The position numbers and the translations under genes are program-made. This document shows, piece by piece, positions 8,392 through 60,117 of a stretch of 64,000 nucleotides of DNA. Source of the stretch: Xenophilus azovorans DSM 13620 (GTDB taxonomy: Bacteria; Pseudomonadota; Gammaproteobacteria; Burkholderiales; Burkholderiaceae_C); the NCBI RefSeq assembly GCF_000745855.1, contig NZ_JQKD01000006.1, forward strand, positions 124,001 to 188,000, read 5' to 3'. The notes under the pieces were generated by a model. That model was given only the letters and a program-made list of their open reading frames with translations, was not told the origin of the DNA and made no database searches. Numbering within the stretch: position 1 is the stretch's first letter; every line of letters begins with the position of its first letter.

Positions 8392-11121
<2,730 letters not shown>

Positions 11122-11227
11122 GCCCCGCACTCTAGGCCGGCGGCCGCGGAATGGGGTATCGAAATGCGCGGCACTGCCCTGCTGCGGCGGCATAAACTGC
11201 CGCACCAACATCATTCGACGGCACATC
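11122..11227. promoter_or_regulatory. Divergent control region, AceE-like gene / Lrp regulator
   Basis: A 106-bp spacer with the inverted repeat TGCGGC (11183-11188) N10 GCCGCA (11199-11204) flanking CATAAACT, a possible -10 for the Lrp gene. This is the likely autoregulatory operator, inferred from symmetry and position. Confidence 0.4.
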
Positions 11228-11698
11228 ATGGAACTGGACGCCATCGACCTGCGCATCCTCGACGAGCTGCAGCGCGACGGCGCGCTGACCAACGTGGCGC
11301 TGGCGCGCCGGGTGCACCTCTCGCCCTCGCCCTGCCTGGCGCGGGTGAAGGCGCTGGAGGCCGCGGGCGTGATCGCCCGCTACGTGGCGCTGTGCAGCGC
11401 GCCGGCGCTCGGGCTGGGGCTGAACGTGTTCATCTCGATCAGCCTGCGGGCGCAGTCGAAGGAAGCGCTCGCGGCCTTCGAGCACCGCATCGCCGAGCAC
11501 GAGGAGGTGATGGAGTGCTACCTGATGACCGGCGACAGCGACTACCTGATCCGCGTCGCCGTGGCCGACATGGCGGCGCTGGAGAAGTTCATCCTCGAGC
11601 AGCTCACGCCGATCCCCGGCATCGAGAAGATCCGCTCCAGCTTCGCGCTCAAGCAGGTGCGCTACAAGACGGCGCTGCCGCTGCCGCTGCCGCGCTGA
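11228..11698 (+). CDS. Lrp/AsnC family regulator (MdeR-like position)
   Basis: A 156-residue regulator beginning [18 protein letters not shown], with the HTH at residues 3-62 and a RAM domain at 68-150. Its position divergent from an AceE/MdeB-type E1 gene parallels mdeR in Pseudomonas putida, which activates methionine catabolism genes; that analogy is inference. The 3' end overlaps the end of the convergent HxlR gene by 50 bp, so the last 16 codons of each share DNA. Confidence 0.93.
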
Positions 11699-26200: not shown

Positions 26201-27346
26201 CAGCGGCAGGCGGTTGGCGATCAGCGCCAGCGCGCCGAGGTCGATGCGGTCGGCGCGCAACGCGCCGCTCTCGGGCGTGCGGCCCTGGACGGCCGTGCGG
26301 CGGAACCACACGTTGCCGCCCGGCCAGCGCACGCCGTCGCCGGTGGCGAACTGCAGGTCGCGGGTGGAGAACTCGAACAGCTCCGGCGTGTTGCGCGCCG
26401 TCAGCCGGCCGGTGAGCTGGCGCAGCACCAGCGGCTCCAGCTTCTCGCCCAGCACGGCGTCGACGCGCGCCAGCGCGAGGTCGGCCGCGCCGCCGGCGGG
26501 CTGGCCGTCCTCCACGTCGATCCAGGCACGCAGCGCGCCGCTGCCCTCGCGGATGCGCGCGTCGAGCGTGACGTAGCGGCCCAGCCGCGTGACGTCGATG
26601 CGCGGCAGCTCGGCGTAGAACTCGCCGTCCCAGCGCCGCCAGTCGCCGCTGCGCAGCGACAGCAGCGGCTGGCGGAACACGCCCATCAGCGTGAAGCGCT
26701 CGCCCCAGCCGGCCGGCGGCGTGGCGTCCAGCCGCAGGCGGTGGCTGCGCGCGCCGTTGCGCGCGACGAAGCGCACGTCGGTCAGCAGCAGGGGCGGCGC
26801 GGCGCGCAGCTCGTCGGTCCACTGCACGGTGCCGCCCTCGACCACCAGCTCGCGCTGCGCGAAGAACCAGTCGGCCGCGCGCTCGCCGCCGGCGCTGCCG
26901 TCGTCGGCCGACAGGTCGAGCCCGGCCACGTGCAGCCGGCCCTGCGCGTCGCGCCGCACCTGCGCCTCGGGGCGCTCGATGTAGAGCTGCTCGAAGCTCA
27001 GGTGCCACAGCGAGCGCGGCGACACGCCCGCCACCACGCGCGCCAGCCGCAGCGCGTCGTGCTGCTGCGCGTCCTGCAGCGCCACGTCGCGCAGCTCGAT
27101 GGTGGGGAACAGGCCCTCGGTGCGGGCCTCGATGGCGCCGATGCGCACCGGTACCCCGATGGCCCGCGTGGCCTGTGCTTCCAATGCGCCGCGCCACTCG
27201 CCGATTCGCGGCACAATCCAGCCGTGTAGGACGACCACGCACAGCAGCAGCCCCAGCCATGCCGCGATCAGCAACCACAGCAGTCCGCGTGCGATCCGGG
27301 CGGTCGTCCTGAGCAGTCGTGAAGGGGAAGGCGTCGTGACGTTCAT
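23201..27346 (-). CDS. yhdP: YhdP family (TIGR02099) AsmA-like envelope protein
   Basis: A 1381-residue protein anchored by one N-terminal helix (about residues 17-42, LLWLLIAAWLGLLLCVVVL), with the rest in the periplasm. It shows the long beta-groove AsmA-like repeat organisation and a conserved C-terminus (YPSLGGQVHLDVASGQFLKA, then GLGAFLAQMVLSRPLAVAA). YhdP, TamB and YdbH move phospholipids between inner and outer membrane. The length matches the family (about 1270-1400). The start at 27346 is only 25 bp from the divergent glnE start, so the promoters overlap. Confidence 0.95.
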   Translation of the reverse strand: MNVTTPSPSRLLRTTARIARGLLWLLIAAWLGLLLCVVVLHGWIVPRIGEWRGALEAQATRAIGVPVRIGAIEARTEGLFPTIELRDVALQDAQQHDALRLARVVAGVSPRSLWHLSFEQLYIERPEAQVRRDAQGRLHVAGLDLSADDGSAGGERAADWFFAQRELVVEGGTVQWTDELRAAPPLLLTDVRFVARNGARSHRLRLDATPPAGWGERFTLMGVFRQPLLSLRSGDWRRWDGEFYAELPRIDVTRLGRYVTLDARIREGSGALRAWIDVEDGQPAGGAADLALARVDAVLGEKLEPLVLRQLTGRLTARNTPELFEFSTRDLQFATGDGVRWPGGNVWFRRTAVQGRTPESGALRADRIDLGALALIANRLPLGDEIRGVIARRAPRGLVENIDAAWQGPLDAPATYQAKGRVTGLSLASSVEATTPATRIAQARAPVGVPGIRGLDASFDMTQAGGRATLAMASGALELPGVFEDPLLPLDQMSGTLQWQREGERIQLSLPDLRFANADAEGSARLAWHTSDPAASGSRSRFPGVLDLQGRLSRADGTRVHRYLPLDIPQEVRHYVRDAVSKGRASEADFRLRGDLWDMPFKDPAKGEFRIAAKVQDVQYAYVPHEQNGQPPAWPALGSLSGDLVFDRAGMQVANARARLAAAPAVELLRGEARIPDLEHAVLSVDAQARGPLGDVLRLGAPLAGGARDFLAGLHAEGGGDYRLKLELPIQAMDQAKVQARVALAGNTLQLAPHTPAFTQAQGALDFTERGFSLGGLQARLAGGEVRVEGQGRWDGSGDELDLRASGRLTAEGLREASEVAWLAPLARRAEGATDYSVSVRQRRGTPEFSVASDLRGLALDLPAPLGKSAEAALPLRVAQTALRPGAEGAAAGEQLEATLGSVASARLLRDTAGAAPRLTRGAVHIGAEAVEAGALPHAGLLANVVLDRLDVDEWRRLLSDGAGALDAQTPAAQASAPAATAWMPDLVAIRAGTFRVAGRTLHDVVLGGSREGELWRANIDARELSGYAEYGSQSAGRLYARLARLKIAPSEAREVETLLDEQPDDLPALDVVVDDFELLGKRLGRAEIDAVNRGGREREWRLNKLVLSTPEGVFNAKGSWAAPAGAGPGAARRTAMDFQLDIQDAGALLERFGMRGVLARGRGQMSGQVQWRGSPFSIDYPSLGGQVHLDVASGQFLKADPGIAKLLGVLSLQALPRRLTLDFRDVFSAGFAFDFIRGDARIASGTASTNNLQMKGVNAAVLMDGQADIVRETQDLRVVVVPEINAGTAALVATAINPAVGLGAFLAQMVLSRPLAVAATQEFHIDGTWADPKVNKLERRHLPELPKLPALPHLPELSELPKLLPLPPGGSTPATKETPP

Positions 27347-27371
27347 CGAGGCTCGCGCTGGGTCGGAAATT

Positions 27372-30311
27372 ATGACCGGCGCCCCACCCGCCGGTTCCTC
27401 GCCGGCCTCCGCCGTGCCGCCCGCCTCCGCCCATTCGCGCTTCGTGCAGCGCCTGCGCCGCCGCTACGCGGCCGAACTGCCGCTGCTGCCGCCCGGCGCC
27501 CCGCTGCGCCCCCACATGGAAGCCGCCTACGCCGCCCTGCGCGGGCGCGGCGACGCGGCGGGCGACGCGCTGCGCATCGTGCGCCAGCTCGTCATGGAGC
27601 GCCTGGTGGTGCTGGACTGCGACGCCGGCTGCGAGCTGGCCGACGTGACGCGCGCCGTGACGCAGCTGGCCGAGTTCGCGCTCGACACCGCCGTGGCCGA
27701 GGCCTTCGCCGAGCTGGACGCGCTGCACGGCGCGCCCGCCGCGCCCGGACCCGATGCCGGCCGTGCGCAGCTCTGGGTCGTCGGCATGGGCAAGCTGGGC
27801 GCGCGCGAGCTCAACGTCTCCAGCGACATCGATCTGATCTACCTGTACGACCACGACGGCGAGACCGCCGGCCTGCCCGACGGGCGCGGGCGCCTGTCCA
27901 ACCAGGAGTACTTCGCCCGCGCGGTCAAGCGCGTCTACGCGCTGGTCGGCGACACCACCGAGCACGGCTTCGTCTTCCGCGTCGACCTGGCGCTGCGGCC
28001 CAACGGCAACTCCGGCCCCAGCGTGGTCTCGCTCGACGCGCTGGAGGAATACCTGCAGGTGCAGGGCCGCGAGTGGGAGCGCTTCGCCTGGCTCAAGAGC
28101 CGCGTGGTGGCGCCCGCCGCCTGCGTGGCCGACGGCTCGGCCCAGGCGCTGCGCGGCGTGGTGCTGCCCTTCGTGTTCCGCAAGTACCTCGACTACGCGG
28201 TGTTCGACGCCCTGCGCGACCTGCACCGGCAGATCCGCGAACAGGCCGCGCGCCGCAGCGCCGGCCGGCCCGAGCGGGCCAACGACGTCAAGCTCTCGCG
28301 CGGCGGCATCCGCGAGATCGAGTTCACCGTGCAGTTGCTGCAGGTGGTGCGCGGCGGCCAGTTCCCCGAGCTGCGCACCCGCCCCACCCTCGACGCGCTG
28401 CAGCGCCTGGCGCGCGCCGGCCTGATGCCGCAGCAGGCGGCCGACGCGCTGGCCGCGGCCTACGTCTTCCTGCGCCGGGTCGAGCACCGCATCCAGTACC
28501 TGGACGACCAGCAGACCCACATGCTGCCGGTGGCCGACGAGGACCTGGCCTGGATCGCCGCCACCATGGGCTTTCCCGGCACCTGCGCCTTCCTCACCGA
28601 GCTGGACGCGCACCGCGAGTTCGTGGCGCAGGAGTTCGACCGCCTGCTCGGCGGCGACAAGCCGTGCAACGGCAACTGCCGGAGCAAGGGCGCGCGCGCC
28701 CCGGCCCCCACCGACCTGGGCGAGCTGCTCGCCGACCTGCCGCCGCCGCTGGCCGAACGCATCCGCGCCTGGTGCGACAACCCGCGCGTGCAGGCCCTGC
28801 GCGACGACGCCCGCGCCCGCCTGTACCAGCTGGTGCGCCGCACCGGCCAGTGGCTGCGCGCACCCGACGGCGAAGACGAGGCGGCGGACGCCGCACCCGC
28901 GCGCATCGACGCCGCCCTGCGCTGGGCCGACTGGATGGAGCCGCTGCTGCGGCGCGACAGCTACCTGGCGCTGCTGGTCGAGCGGCCCGGTGTGCACGAG
29001 CGCCTGCTGCGCCTGCTCGGCGCGGCCCGCTGGCCGGCGCGCTACCTGATGCAGCACCCCGGCGTGATCGACGAACTGGCCGGCGCCGAGCTGCTGGCCG
29101 GCCGCTTCGTCGCCGAGGACTTCGAGGCCGAGCTGGAGGCGCGGCGCTCCTCGCTGCGCAGCACCGGCGAGGCCGACGAGGAGGCCCTGCTGAGCCTGCT
29201 GCGCCGCGCGCACCATGCCGAGGTGTTCCGCACCCTGGCGCGCGACGTGGACGGGCGCCTGACCGTCGAGCAGGTGGCCGACGACCTGAGCGCCCTGGCC
29301 GACACGGTGCTGCGCGTCACCGCCCGCTGGTGCTGGGCCCTGCTGCGGGGCCGCCACCGCGAGGCGCCGCGCATGGCCGTCATCGGCTACGGCAAGCTCG
29401 GCGGCAAGGAACTGGGCTACGGCAGCGACCTGGACATCGTCTTCGTGCACGACGACGACGACGAGATGGCCGGCGACGTGTACGCCGCTTTCGTGCGCAA
29501 GCTCATCAACTGGCTCACGGTGAAGACGGCCGAGGGCGACCTGTACGAGATCGACACCGCGCTGCGGCCCAACGGCAACTCGGGCCTGCTGAGCACCACC
29601 TTCGAGGCCTACGAGAAGTACCAGCTCGGCCGCGGCAGCAACACCGCCTGGACCTGGGAGCACCAGGCCATGACGCGCGCGCGCTTCGTGCTCGGCGATG
29701 ACCTGGCCCCCACGCTCCCTGCTACGCATGGTTCGCTGCCCCCCGAGGGGGCGCTCGCCGCCTTGGGGCGGCCCGGCGGCGGCGAGGTGGCCCCCACGCT
29801 CCCCGCTTCGCGCGATTCGCTTCCCCCCGAGGGGGCGCGTTCCGCCTTGGGGCGGCCCGGCGGCGGAACGTCGCTGGCCGAGCGCTTCGACGCCGTGCGC
29901 GAGGCCGTCATCACCGCCCCGCGCGACGTGGCCGCGCTGCGCGCCGAGATCGTCGCCATGCGCGAGAAGGTGCGCGCCGCGCACCCGGTCAAGCCCGGCC
30001 GCTTCGACGTCAAGCACAGCCCCGGCGGCATGGTGGACGCGGAGTTCGCGGTGCAGTTCCTGGTGCTGTCGGCCGCGCGCGAGCATCGCGAGCTGATCCC
30101 CAACGTCGGCAACATCGCGCTGCTGCTGCGCGCCGAGGAGGCCGGCCTGCTGCCGCCGGGCGTGGGCCGCGACGCGGCCGCCGCCTACCGCGAGCTGCGC
30201 CGTGTGCAGCACCGCGCGCGGCTGAACGAGGAGCCGACGCAGGTGCCGGCCGAGGCGCTGGCGAAGGAACAGCAGGCCATGCGCGCGCTGTGGGAGGCCG
30301 TCTTTGGCTGA
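27372..30311 (+). CDS. glnE: Bifunctional glutamine synthetase adenylyltransferase/deadenylase, with tandem in-frame repeat insertion
   Basis: A 979-residue enzyme that adenylylates and deadenylylates glutamine synthetase in response to PII. The N-terminal deadenylase has VVGMGKLGARELNVSSDIDL; the C-terminal adenylyltransferase has VIGYGKLGGKELGYGSDLDI. Residues about 779-834 are an insertion of two 28-residue units, each of the form APTLPA-x-SLPPEGA-x-ALGRPGGG, placed just after ARFVLGDD and before SLAERFDAVREAVITAPRD, where relatives join directly. Conserved sequence (KHSPGGMVDAEFAVQFL) resumes in frame, so the gene seems functional. E. coli GlnE has 946 residues. Confidence 0.95.
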   Translation: MTGAPPAGSSPASAVPPASAHSRFVQRLRRRYAAELPLLPPGAPLRPHMEAAYAALRGRGDAAGDALRIVRQLVMERLVVLDCDAGCELADVTRAVTQLAEFALDTAVAEAFAELDALHGAPAAPGPDAGRAQLWVVGMGKLGARELNVSSDIDLIYLYDHDGETAGLPDGRGRLSNQEYFARAVKRVYALVGDTTEHGFVFRVDLALRPNGNSGPSVVSLDALEEYLQVQGREWERFAWLKSRVVAPAACVADGSAQALRGVVLPFVFRKYLDYAVFDALRDLHRQIREQAARRSAGRPERANDVKLSRGGIREIEFTVQLLQVVRGGQFPELRTRPTLDALQRLARAGLMPQQAADALAAAYVFLRRVEHRIQYLDDQQTHMLPVADEDLAWIAATMGFPGTCAFLTELDAHREFVAQEFDRLLGGDKPCNGNCRSKGARAPAPTDLGELLADLPPPLAERIRAWCDNPRVQALRDDARARLYQLVRRTGQWLRAPDGEDEAADAAPARIDAALRWADWMEPLLRRDSYLALLVERPGVHERLLRLLGAARWPARYLMQHPGVIDELAGAELLAGRFVAEDFEAELEARRSSLRSTGEADEEALLSLLRRAHHAEVFRTLARDVDGRLTVEQVADDLSALADTVLRVTARWCWALLRGRHREAPRMAVIGYGKLGGKELGYGSDLDIVFVHDDDDEMAGDVYAAFVRKLINWLTVKTAEGDLYEIDTALRPNGNSGLLSTTFEAYEKYQLGRGSNTAWTWEHQAMTRARFVLGDDLAPTLPATHGSLPPEGALAALGRPGGGEVAPTLPASRDSLPPEGARSALGRPGGGTSLAERFDAVREAVITAPRDVAALRAEIVAMREKVRAAHPVKPGRFDVKHSPGGMVDAEFAVQFLVLSAAREHRELIPNVGNIALLLRAEEAGLLPPGVGRDAAAAYRELRRVQHRARLNEEPTQVPAEALAKEQQAMRALWEAVFG
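29706..29789 (+). repeat. Palindromic repeat inside glnE, copy 1 of 2
   Basis: An 84-bp unit with the stem GCCCCCCGAGGGGGC and GCCGCCTTGGGGCGGC. It begins GCCCCCACGCTCC and ends in GGCGGCGG. It encodes the first 28-residue unit of the GlnE insertion. 84 is divisible by three, so the frame is kept. Confidence 0.85.
29790..29873 (+). repeat. Palindromic repeat inside glnE, copy 2 of 2
   Basis: A second unit directly abutting the first with a period of 84 bp. It has the same hairpin arms (CCCCCCGAGGGGG, then CCGCCTTGGGGCGG) but a different middle (CCGCTTCGCGCGATTCG). The differences lie mainly in the first hairpin, so this is not a recent exact duplication. Confidence 0.85.
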
Positions 30312-37983: not shown

Positions 37984-38070
37984 CCCGCCGCCGGGCCGCC
38001 CCAAGGCGGCCGCGCCTCCCCCTCGGGGGTGGCGTTCCATGCCGCGCAGCGGCAGGAAAAGCTGGGGGGC
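37984..38070 (-). repeat. Palindromic repeat, intergenic copy in the SPFH operon
   Basis: This repeat lies between the DUF350 stop and the aminopropyltransferase start, on the minus strand relative to the glnE copies. Shared cores are GCCTTGGGGCGGCCCGGCGG and CCACCCCCGAGGGGGAGG, with a first hairpin TGCCGCTGCGCGGCA. It fills almost the whole 101-bp gap and could affect mRNA stability between the two genes. Confidence 0.85.
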
Positions 38071-59919: not shown

Positions 59920-59939
59920 GTGGGTATGTGGGGTTCCTC

Positions 59940-60001
59940 GGCCGAAGGACACGATTGACCACGCAGCCCTTCGGCCTTTTTCCCGAAGCTGCGCAGTCAA
60001 T
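59940..60001 (-). promoter_or_regulatory. Expression platform of Mn2+ riboswitch with two exclusive hairpins
   Basis: Hairpin A joins 59954-59976 with 59983-60001 (arms ATTGACTGCGCAGC and the complement). Hairpin B pairs GGCCGAAGG (minus strand, 59976-59968) with CCTTCGGCC (59948-59940), which abuts the GAGGAA ribosome site at 59939-59934. The two share 59968-59976, so only one can form. Switching between them could hide or expose the ribosome site. Confidence 0.65.
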
Positions 60002-60106
60002 GGTCTCGCCAGGTTCTCACTGCCGGCGCCATGCCTCGCGTGGGGGCAAGGCAAGTTTGTTGACGCAGGCCCTCTCGCGCGGCGGCGGAAGGCGGCTACT
60101 CCCCAA
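60002..60106 (-). ncRNA. yybP-ykoY (Mn2+-sensing) riboswitch aptamer
   Basis: On the minus strand the conserved blocks are GGGGAGTAGCCGCC at the start (60104-60091), GCGTCAACAAACTTGCC in the middle (about 60067-60051), and CTGGCGAGACC at the end (60012-60002). These match the yybP-ykoY consensus, which is widespread before TMEM165 and MntP genes and is turned on by Mn2+. Confidence 0.93.
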
Positions 60107-60117
60107 TGACGGGGCGC

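Follow-up and report, generated by a model that had tools for sequence, protein, structure and literature searches.

The glnE gene, encoding glutamine synthetase adenylyltransferase, is interrupted in frame by two adjacent copies of a repeat in the 64-kb window considered here (the whole stretch of DNA analyzed), which is part of a 6.5-Mb genome of 132 contigs. This raises the question of what kind of element the repeat is and how it came to lie within such a gene. The closest named relatives, as judged from GlnE, were Variovorax, Xenophilus, Pseudacidovorax, and other Comamonadaceae. In the stop-to-stop ORF (26985–30308), a Pfam search revealed the GlnE (E-value = 9.8 × 10−105) and GlnD_UR_UTase (E-value = 3.8 × 10−38) domains; the last residue of the GlnE domain match was residue 906, and repeat unit 1 began at residue 907. 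The solved adenylyltransferase chain 3k7d was matched in two parts, the break falling exactly at the insert, between chain residues 349 and 351. The distance from a conserved G to the RFD motif was 66 residues, compared with 10 in insert-free relatives, which corresponds to a net insert of 56 codons. The in-frame translations of units 1 and 2 were LAPTLPATHGSLPPEGALAALGRPGGGE and VAPTLPASRDSLPPEGARSALGRPGGGT, respectively, and the tandem period was exactly 84 bp. Two adjacent in-frame repeats of this length had been proposed by a sequence-only reading of the window, and their presence was confirmed (Table 1).

Table 1. Positions of the glnE ORF, the parts of its two repeat units, and the further copies of the repeat in the window.
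Feature	Position	Strand	Basis
glnE ORF (glutamine synthetase adenylyltransferase), interrupted in frame	27099..30311	+	ORF listing; putative start codon
Repeat unit 1, 84 bp, 28 codons	29703..29786	+	Covariance-model match, 92.9 bits
Unit 1, hairpin 2 (GCCCCCCGAGGGGGC), conserved	29738..29752	+	Copy alignment and pair counts
Unit 1, hairpin 3, 5′ arm, copy-specific	29754..29762	+	Copy comparison, covariation
Unit 1, hairpin 3, fixed loop TTGGGGCGGCCCGGC	29763..29777	+	Copy alignment
Unit 1, hairpin 3, 3′ arm, complement of 5′ arm	29778..29786	+	Copy comparison, covariation
Repeat unit 2, 84 bp, 28 codons	29787..29870	+	Covariance-model match, 89.4 bits
Unit 2, hairpin 3, 5′ arm, unlike unit 1 yet paired	29838..29846	+	Unit comparison
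Unit 2, hairpin 3, fixed loop	29847..29861	+	Copy alignment
Unit 2, hairpin 3, 3′ arm	29862..29870	+	Unit comparison
Third window copy, in AceE-like ORF (about 8395–11379, − strand), antisense, in frame	10609..10691	+	
Partial copy, between two same-strand coding stretches	37985..38049	−	

In a structural model of a 402-residue GlnE fragment, built on 39 rows, residues 204–254 had a pLDDT below 50, and this stretch was flanked by a strand (193–197) and a helix (258–270). According to this model, the 56-residue insert, once translated, is probably disordered. We infer that the insert is translated and that it is neutral for GlnE.

Comparison of the copies showed that a unit of the element consists of a variable hairpin 1, a conserved hairpin 2, and a hairpin 3 with copy-specific arms and a fixed loop, which is TTGGGGCGGCCCGGC or, alternatively, TTCGGGCGGCCGGGC. 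The hairpin covariation score was 0.426, compared with 0.125 for shuffled and no more than 0.118 for slid sequences; six of the seven tested hairpin arm pairs changed on both sides; and the 8-base arms had on average 6.76 positions paired within a copy versus 3.60 between different copies (46 rows, one place being represented twice). The folding energy of the two glnE units was unremarkable for their composition (z = −0.17 and 0.06 on the + strand), and the structure of the repeat is therefore established by covariation rather than by folding energy. The repeat had earlier been described as palindromic; the hairpins are borne out by covariation, but each unit is a set of hairpins and not one palindrome. 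Terminal inverted repeats were absent, since the longest exact inverted run between the ends of a copy averaged 3.71, compared with 3.81 for the ends of different copies. The copies were divided into classes G, J, C, and T, which are the analyst's own labels, G, the in-gene class, being partly defined by the copy being in frame and J comprising copies at gene junctions. Class T is a terminator-side subfamily set apart by its body (GACCCCTCGG...), for example at L192, L194, L195, L197, and L208, and its copies sit at A-tracts beside apparent intrinsic terminator hairpins; loci L020 and L211 were assigned to it through a body motif.

Between the two glnE units, 13 of the 84 positions were different: the first base, six positions in the hairpin 1 region (18–36), and six that make up a mirrored 3 + 3 block in the hairpin 3 arms (53–55 and 81–83). 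This corrects the earlier reading that the units differ mainly in hairpin 1. Whether the pair arose by one insertion that was tandemly duplicated and then diverged, rather than by two insertions, is evenly balanced. The exact period and eight tandem arrays in relatives, whose arms are the same or almost the same, argue for duplication, as does the pair at L182 of this genome, whose arms are also slightly different, whereas the number of differences, including the mirrored arm block, exceeds that found in the arrays of relatives. In L254, L256, and L257 of relatives, three or four head-to-tail units were found with arms identical or nearly so.

The repeat found in glnE is far beyond chance in this genome. 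At least 40 DNA matches were found, this being the number scored, and a covariance model derived from 42 copies gave 114 matches with an E-value of 0.01 or better, which is a lower bound because 150 of 14951 first-look candidates were scored. The 86 copies examined were nhmmer finds in fetched stretches rather than the full set of 114 model matches; 76 of these were anatomized by pattern, and the other 10 were omitted from the arm analyses. Coding stretches were called by codon score, the model having been trained on 156 of this genome's ORFs, and not with a gene finder. According to these calls, 32 of the 86 copies lay in frame inside ORFs, with one coding frame running through the element; 29 lay between same-strand coding stretches, in different frames (25) or in one frame interrupted by a stop (4); and the other 25 either had a non-coding side (17) or lay between opposite strands (8). 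In all 29 same-strand copies, the upstream frame ended 4–44 nt short of the element, and 28 of them had an ATG, GTG, or TTG of the downstream frame within 16 nt of the element end (raw counts; none was listed for L191). No frameshifted genes were found among the 61 in-gene and same-strand copies, to which this check was applied.

The in-frame copies were found in genes encoding GlnE, two different UvrA proteins, RecJ, RecG, valyl-tRNA synthetase (ValS), MurD (two copies), anthranilate synthase, an AceE-like dehydrogenase, phosphoglucose isomerase, a type IV pilus ATPase, two biotin-dependent carboxylases, a CobO family enzyme, and others. The proposed family of protein-invading repeats is supported by this set of many unrelated core genes, and copies were not almost always intergenic with random length in dead genes; yet 54 of the 86 copies were not in frame within a gene. 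The two uvrA copies are at L021 and L039, and the two in murD (L180:436–2310) are separate. The in-frame copy at L016 (GluQRS) lies just downstream of a stop and so close to the N-terminus that it may fall outside the protein. The copy in the AceE-like gene is, as had been stated, read from the opposite strand to the glnE copies. The AceE-like gene itself scored above the NCBIfam cut-offs of both aceE and TIGR03186, the latter being an alpha-ketoglutarate dehydrogenase exception model. Elsewhere in the window, a manganese riboswitch (yybP-ykoY, RF00080) was detected at 59937–60116 on the − strand (58.4 bits, above the gathering score).

The flanks of the copies were searched in genomes of the same genus, and the lengths between flank anchors were compared. 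The length of the in-gene inserts was divisible by three in 42 of 42 comparisons, covering all 17 in-gene sites for which relatives have an empty site. These lengths were mostly 81, 84, or 87 bp, with 33, 72, 78, and 102 bp where the relatives had or lacked other residues at the site. At junctions between same-strand genes, on the contrary, the insert was a multiple of three at two of seven sites (L036 and L176) and not at L029, L031, L035, L037, and L174. Divisibility by three within genes is expected from both genes being intact; it is the contrast with the junctions that is informative. An alignment of filled versus empty sites with MAFFT was rejected because the insert was misplaced, and long-gap and split alignments, the latter giving lengths not divisible by three in 17 of 41 in-gene rows, were superseded by the anchor count.

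The coding share of the window, calculated with the same codon score, was 93%, so unselected insertion would place far more copies in genes than were found there. It is highly probable that the repeat belongs to a family of non-autonomous mobile hairpins of about 80–90 bp in Comamonadaceae, mobilized in trans and filtered in its placement by selection, with similar sequences also present in some other Betaproteobacteria. Such elements would be spread by an enzyme acting in trans and would insert at many places, of which selection would retain the harmless ones: in frame in proteins, in the gaps between a stop and the next start, and in intergenic DNA, in some cases next to hairpins resembling terminators. 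The tandem units of glnE lie just after the adenylyltransferase domain and would be translated as the 56-residue insert. That an enzyme acting in trans moves the element and that the observed placement results from selective filtering are what we infer from these data. Conversely, the copies could be functional RNA or DNA sites (stability hairpins, terminators, or protein-binding sites) selected at operon junctions, the in-gene copies being by-products. The 29 copies between same-strand coding stretches, the conserved covarying hairpins, and the location of one class beside terminator-like hairpins agree with this explanation, but about one-third of the copies lie in unrelated genes on either strand, the examined places in relatives are often empty, and an Rfam search of the repeat gave no family at its threshold, so that we regard it as quite unlikely.

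Another explanation of the in-gene copies is that they are useful protein segments maintained by selection at the protein level. A GlnE tree was constructed from 102 of 110 rows (eight rows from other families were left out), and six of the 102 rows carried a recognizable element at the same place, each grouping with insert-free rows; the weakest fork among them was that of L111 (100/65). Our reading of the printed tree suggests six scattered origins of the element in GlnE; the count given by the tree tool was three changes, which compares labeled groups only, with 91 rows outside them. The occurrence of the element at the same GlnE site in six lineages is in favor of protein-level selection, as are the GlnE stretches of L116, L118, and L119, which are also long without a recognizable element, and a FemAB-like gene with the element at apparently the same site in two genera (L009 of this genome and L258, a copy of two units, in genome G029 of another genus). 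However, four of the six GlnE copies (L268, L076, L094, and L110) are shortened and still in frame, and the glnE insert is predicted to be disordered. Moreover, the 30 anatomized in-gene copies are read in five of the six frames (8, 3, 9, 2, and 8 copies) and yield unrelated peptides, which argues that the peptide itself is not under selection. Useful protein segments are a very improbable explanation of the in-gene copies. The shortened in-frame copies suggest erosion into new linkers; a regular expression for the whole element gave no match in 80 GlnE loci, and a looser pattern detected the eroded copies.

The copy-specific arms of hairpin 3 were compared between orthologous and paralogous copies. 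In orthologous copies from different species, with flanks 92–99% identical, the 5′ arm was the same at 8 of 8 bases in seven of eight pairs and at 7 of 8 in the remaining pair (of 20 loci, 13 formed pairs and 7 did not, and three of the eight pairs came from one trio). Among paralogues with bodies at least 97% identical, a mean of 5.15 of the 8 arm bases were common, and 39% of the pairs shared four or fewer (79 pairs, which are not independent). Since the arms vary among near-identical paralogues and are stable in orthologues, the data support renewal of the hairpin 3 arms around transposition, as far as can be judged from sequence comparison. Alternatively, the covariation of the arms might result from compensatory mutations or from correction by template switching once the element is in place. 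Template switching has been reported to restore the pairing of hairpin arms (PMC8794818, PMC8604942), and the orthologue differences (own L018 versus L298/L299, and L306 versus L307) are on both arms; nevertheless, orthologues keep 7–8 of 8 arm bases, whereas many equally similar paralogues do not, which makes post-insertion correction somewhat unlikely.

If the arms are renewed, their source may be the target. As a sign of target duplication, the match of the left flank to the 3′ arm was assessed; its observed extent was reached by 0 of 5000 permutations in each of classes T and J, with a weak signal in class C (96 of 5000) and none in the in-gene copies (3139 of 5000). When the 5′ arm was taken in place of the 3′ arm, class T alone passed (0 of 5000 permutations; 366, 1362, and 1617 for J, C, and G, respectively). 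In class T, the flank and arms were mostly both ATGAAAAA or both ACAAAAAA. The 3′ arm of L174 matches the sequence of the empty site in relatives, and that of L041 nearly does; the 5′ arm follows. These results could reflect target copying, in which the 3′ arm would be taken from the target and the 5′ arm would be its inverted copy around the invariant 15-nt loop. This possibility fits the paralogue-variable and orthologue-stable arms and the left-flank match in classes J and T, and it fits poorly with the absence of a signal in the in-gene copies, the predominance of one arm sequence in class C, and the restriction of the 5′ arm match to class T; we put it forward tentatively, as unlikely on present evidence. 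To our knowledge, no such mode of transposition is established for REPs or MITEs.

The distribution of the family was assessed in other genomes. DNA matches were obtained in all 15 genomes of the genus, counting the present one, in 19 of 21 other genomes of the family, and in 2 of 24 genomes from other families of the order. With the covariance model, the element was detected at an E-value of 10−6 in 41 of 60 genomes of the family, again counting the present one. Matches were also obtained in 11 plasmid or megareplicon records, which belong to Burkholderia, Paraburkholderia, Variovorax, Acidovorax, Rhodoferax, and Azoarcus, and no match was found in the phage records searched. Among 21 places in three other genomes, 3 were in frame, 14 were between same-strand stretches with the upstream stop before the element, and 4 were of other kinds; the further loci numbered 20, taken from the top of the match list (10 and 9 from two genomes and one from a third). 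In the near-identical genomes G009 and G014, the matches paired by score, with two extra matches in one of them in an apparently duplicated stretch, and no polymorphic insertion between the two was found. A single RAYT-like Y1 transposase gene was present in 14 of the 15 genus genomes, and such a gene was also present in all nine other family genomes searched. As the mobilizer, this transposase is unsupported by position, no element being found in nine inspected neighborhoods of the gene (L240–L248), and the gene was not found in G003, although G003 has elements.

The sequence-only reading had supposed that the family is undescribed in this group; in agreement with this, the literature search gave no description of the element, and none of four core strings was matched in the texts searched. 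Several known systems are comparable. According to reviews, Rickettsia palindromic elements (RPEs) are small palindromic repeats of 105–146 bp with terminal inverted repeats, found in frame in many unrelated conserved genes and also between genes, and at least one enzyme so interrupted is reported to be active (PMC2229807, PMC10969869). The present element resembles them in lying in frame within unrelated conserved genes and in intergenic DNA; it differs from these descriptions in its mostly 81–87-bp length, several hairpins, lack of terminal inverted repeats, high-G+C betaproteobacterial hosts, and copy-specific covarying arms. GTAG/CGTC REPs, as described in the main text of PMC3733652, are genome-wide hairpins of 20–40 bp, some of them intragenic, with many of the latter in DNA repair genes, and both uvrA genes of O. 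terrae carry them; Variovorax, Acidovorax, Comamonas, and Delftia are absent from that text. The likeness extends to genome-wide hairpins that are partly intragenic and to the invasion of two uvrA genes, whereas the REP tags are mostly missing here (on either strand, 3 of the 76 anatomized copies had a GTAG and 13 had a CGTC no more than 8 nt from an end, as raw counts), the unit is two to four times longer, and the arms differ between close copies. The REP/RAYT system (PMC2817692) likewise combines non-autonomous palindromes with one Y1 transposase in the genome, but repeats flanking the rayt gene, as expected of that system, are lacking here, none lying by nine Y1 genes, and most copies have no GTAG head. 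MITE-like elements such as ERIC and Correia (PMC2229807) are similar in being small and non-autonomous, with in-frame fusions and with target duplications, the signal for which is strong here in classes T and J, weak in C, and absent in the in-gene copies; they differ in their terminal inverted repeats, and a partner transposon was sought here in the Y1 family only. By analogy, RPEs and intragenic REPs may be regarded as the same sort of phenomenon as the element described here.

In-frame palindromes within proteins are best known from the obligate intracellular Rickettsia. Here, they are found in a group with cultured free-living members, with dozens of copies in core genes and with empty sites in close relatives, which makes it possible to test the neutrality of the inserts, their erosion into new protein linkers, and what moves the elements. 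A constant loop flanked by arms that covary and are specific to each copy is an unusual trace, from which the mechanism of transposition may be learned; if target copying is true, each copy would record its landing site.
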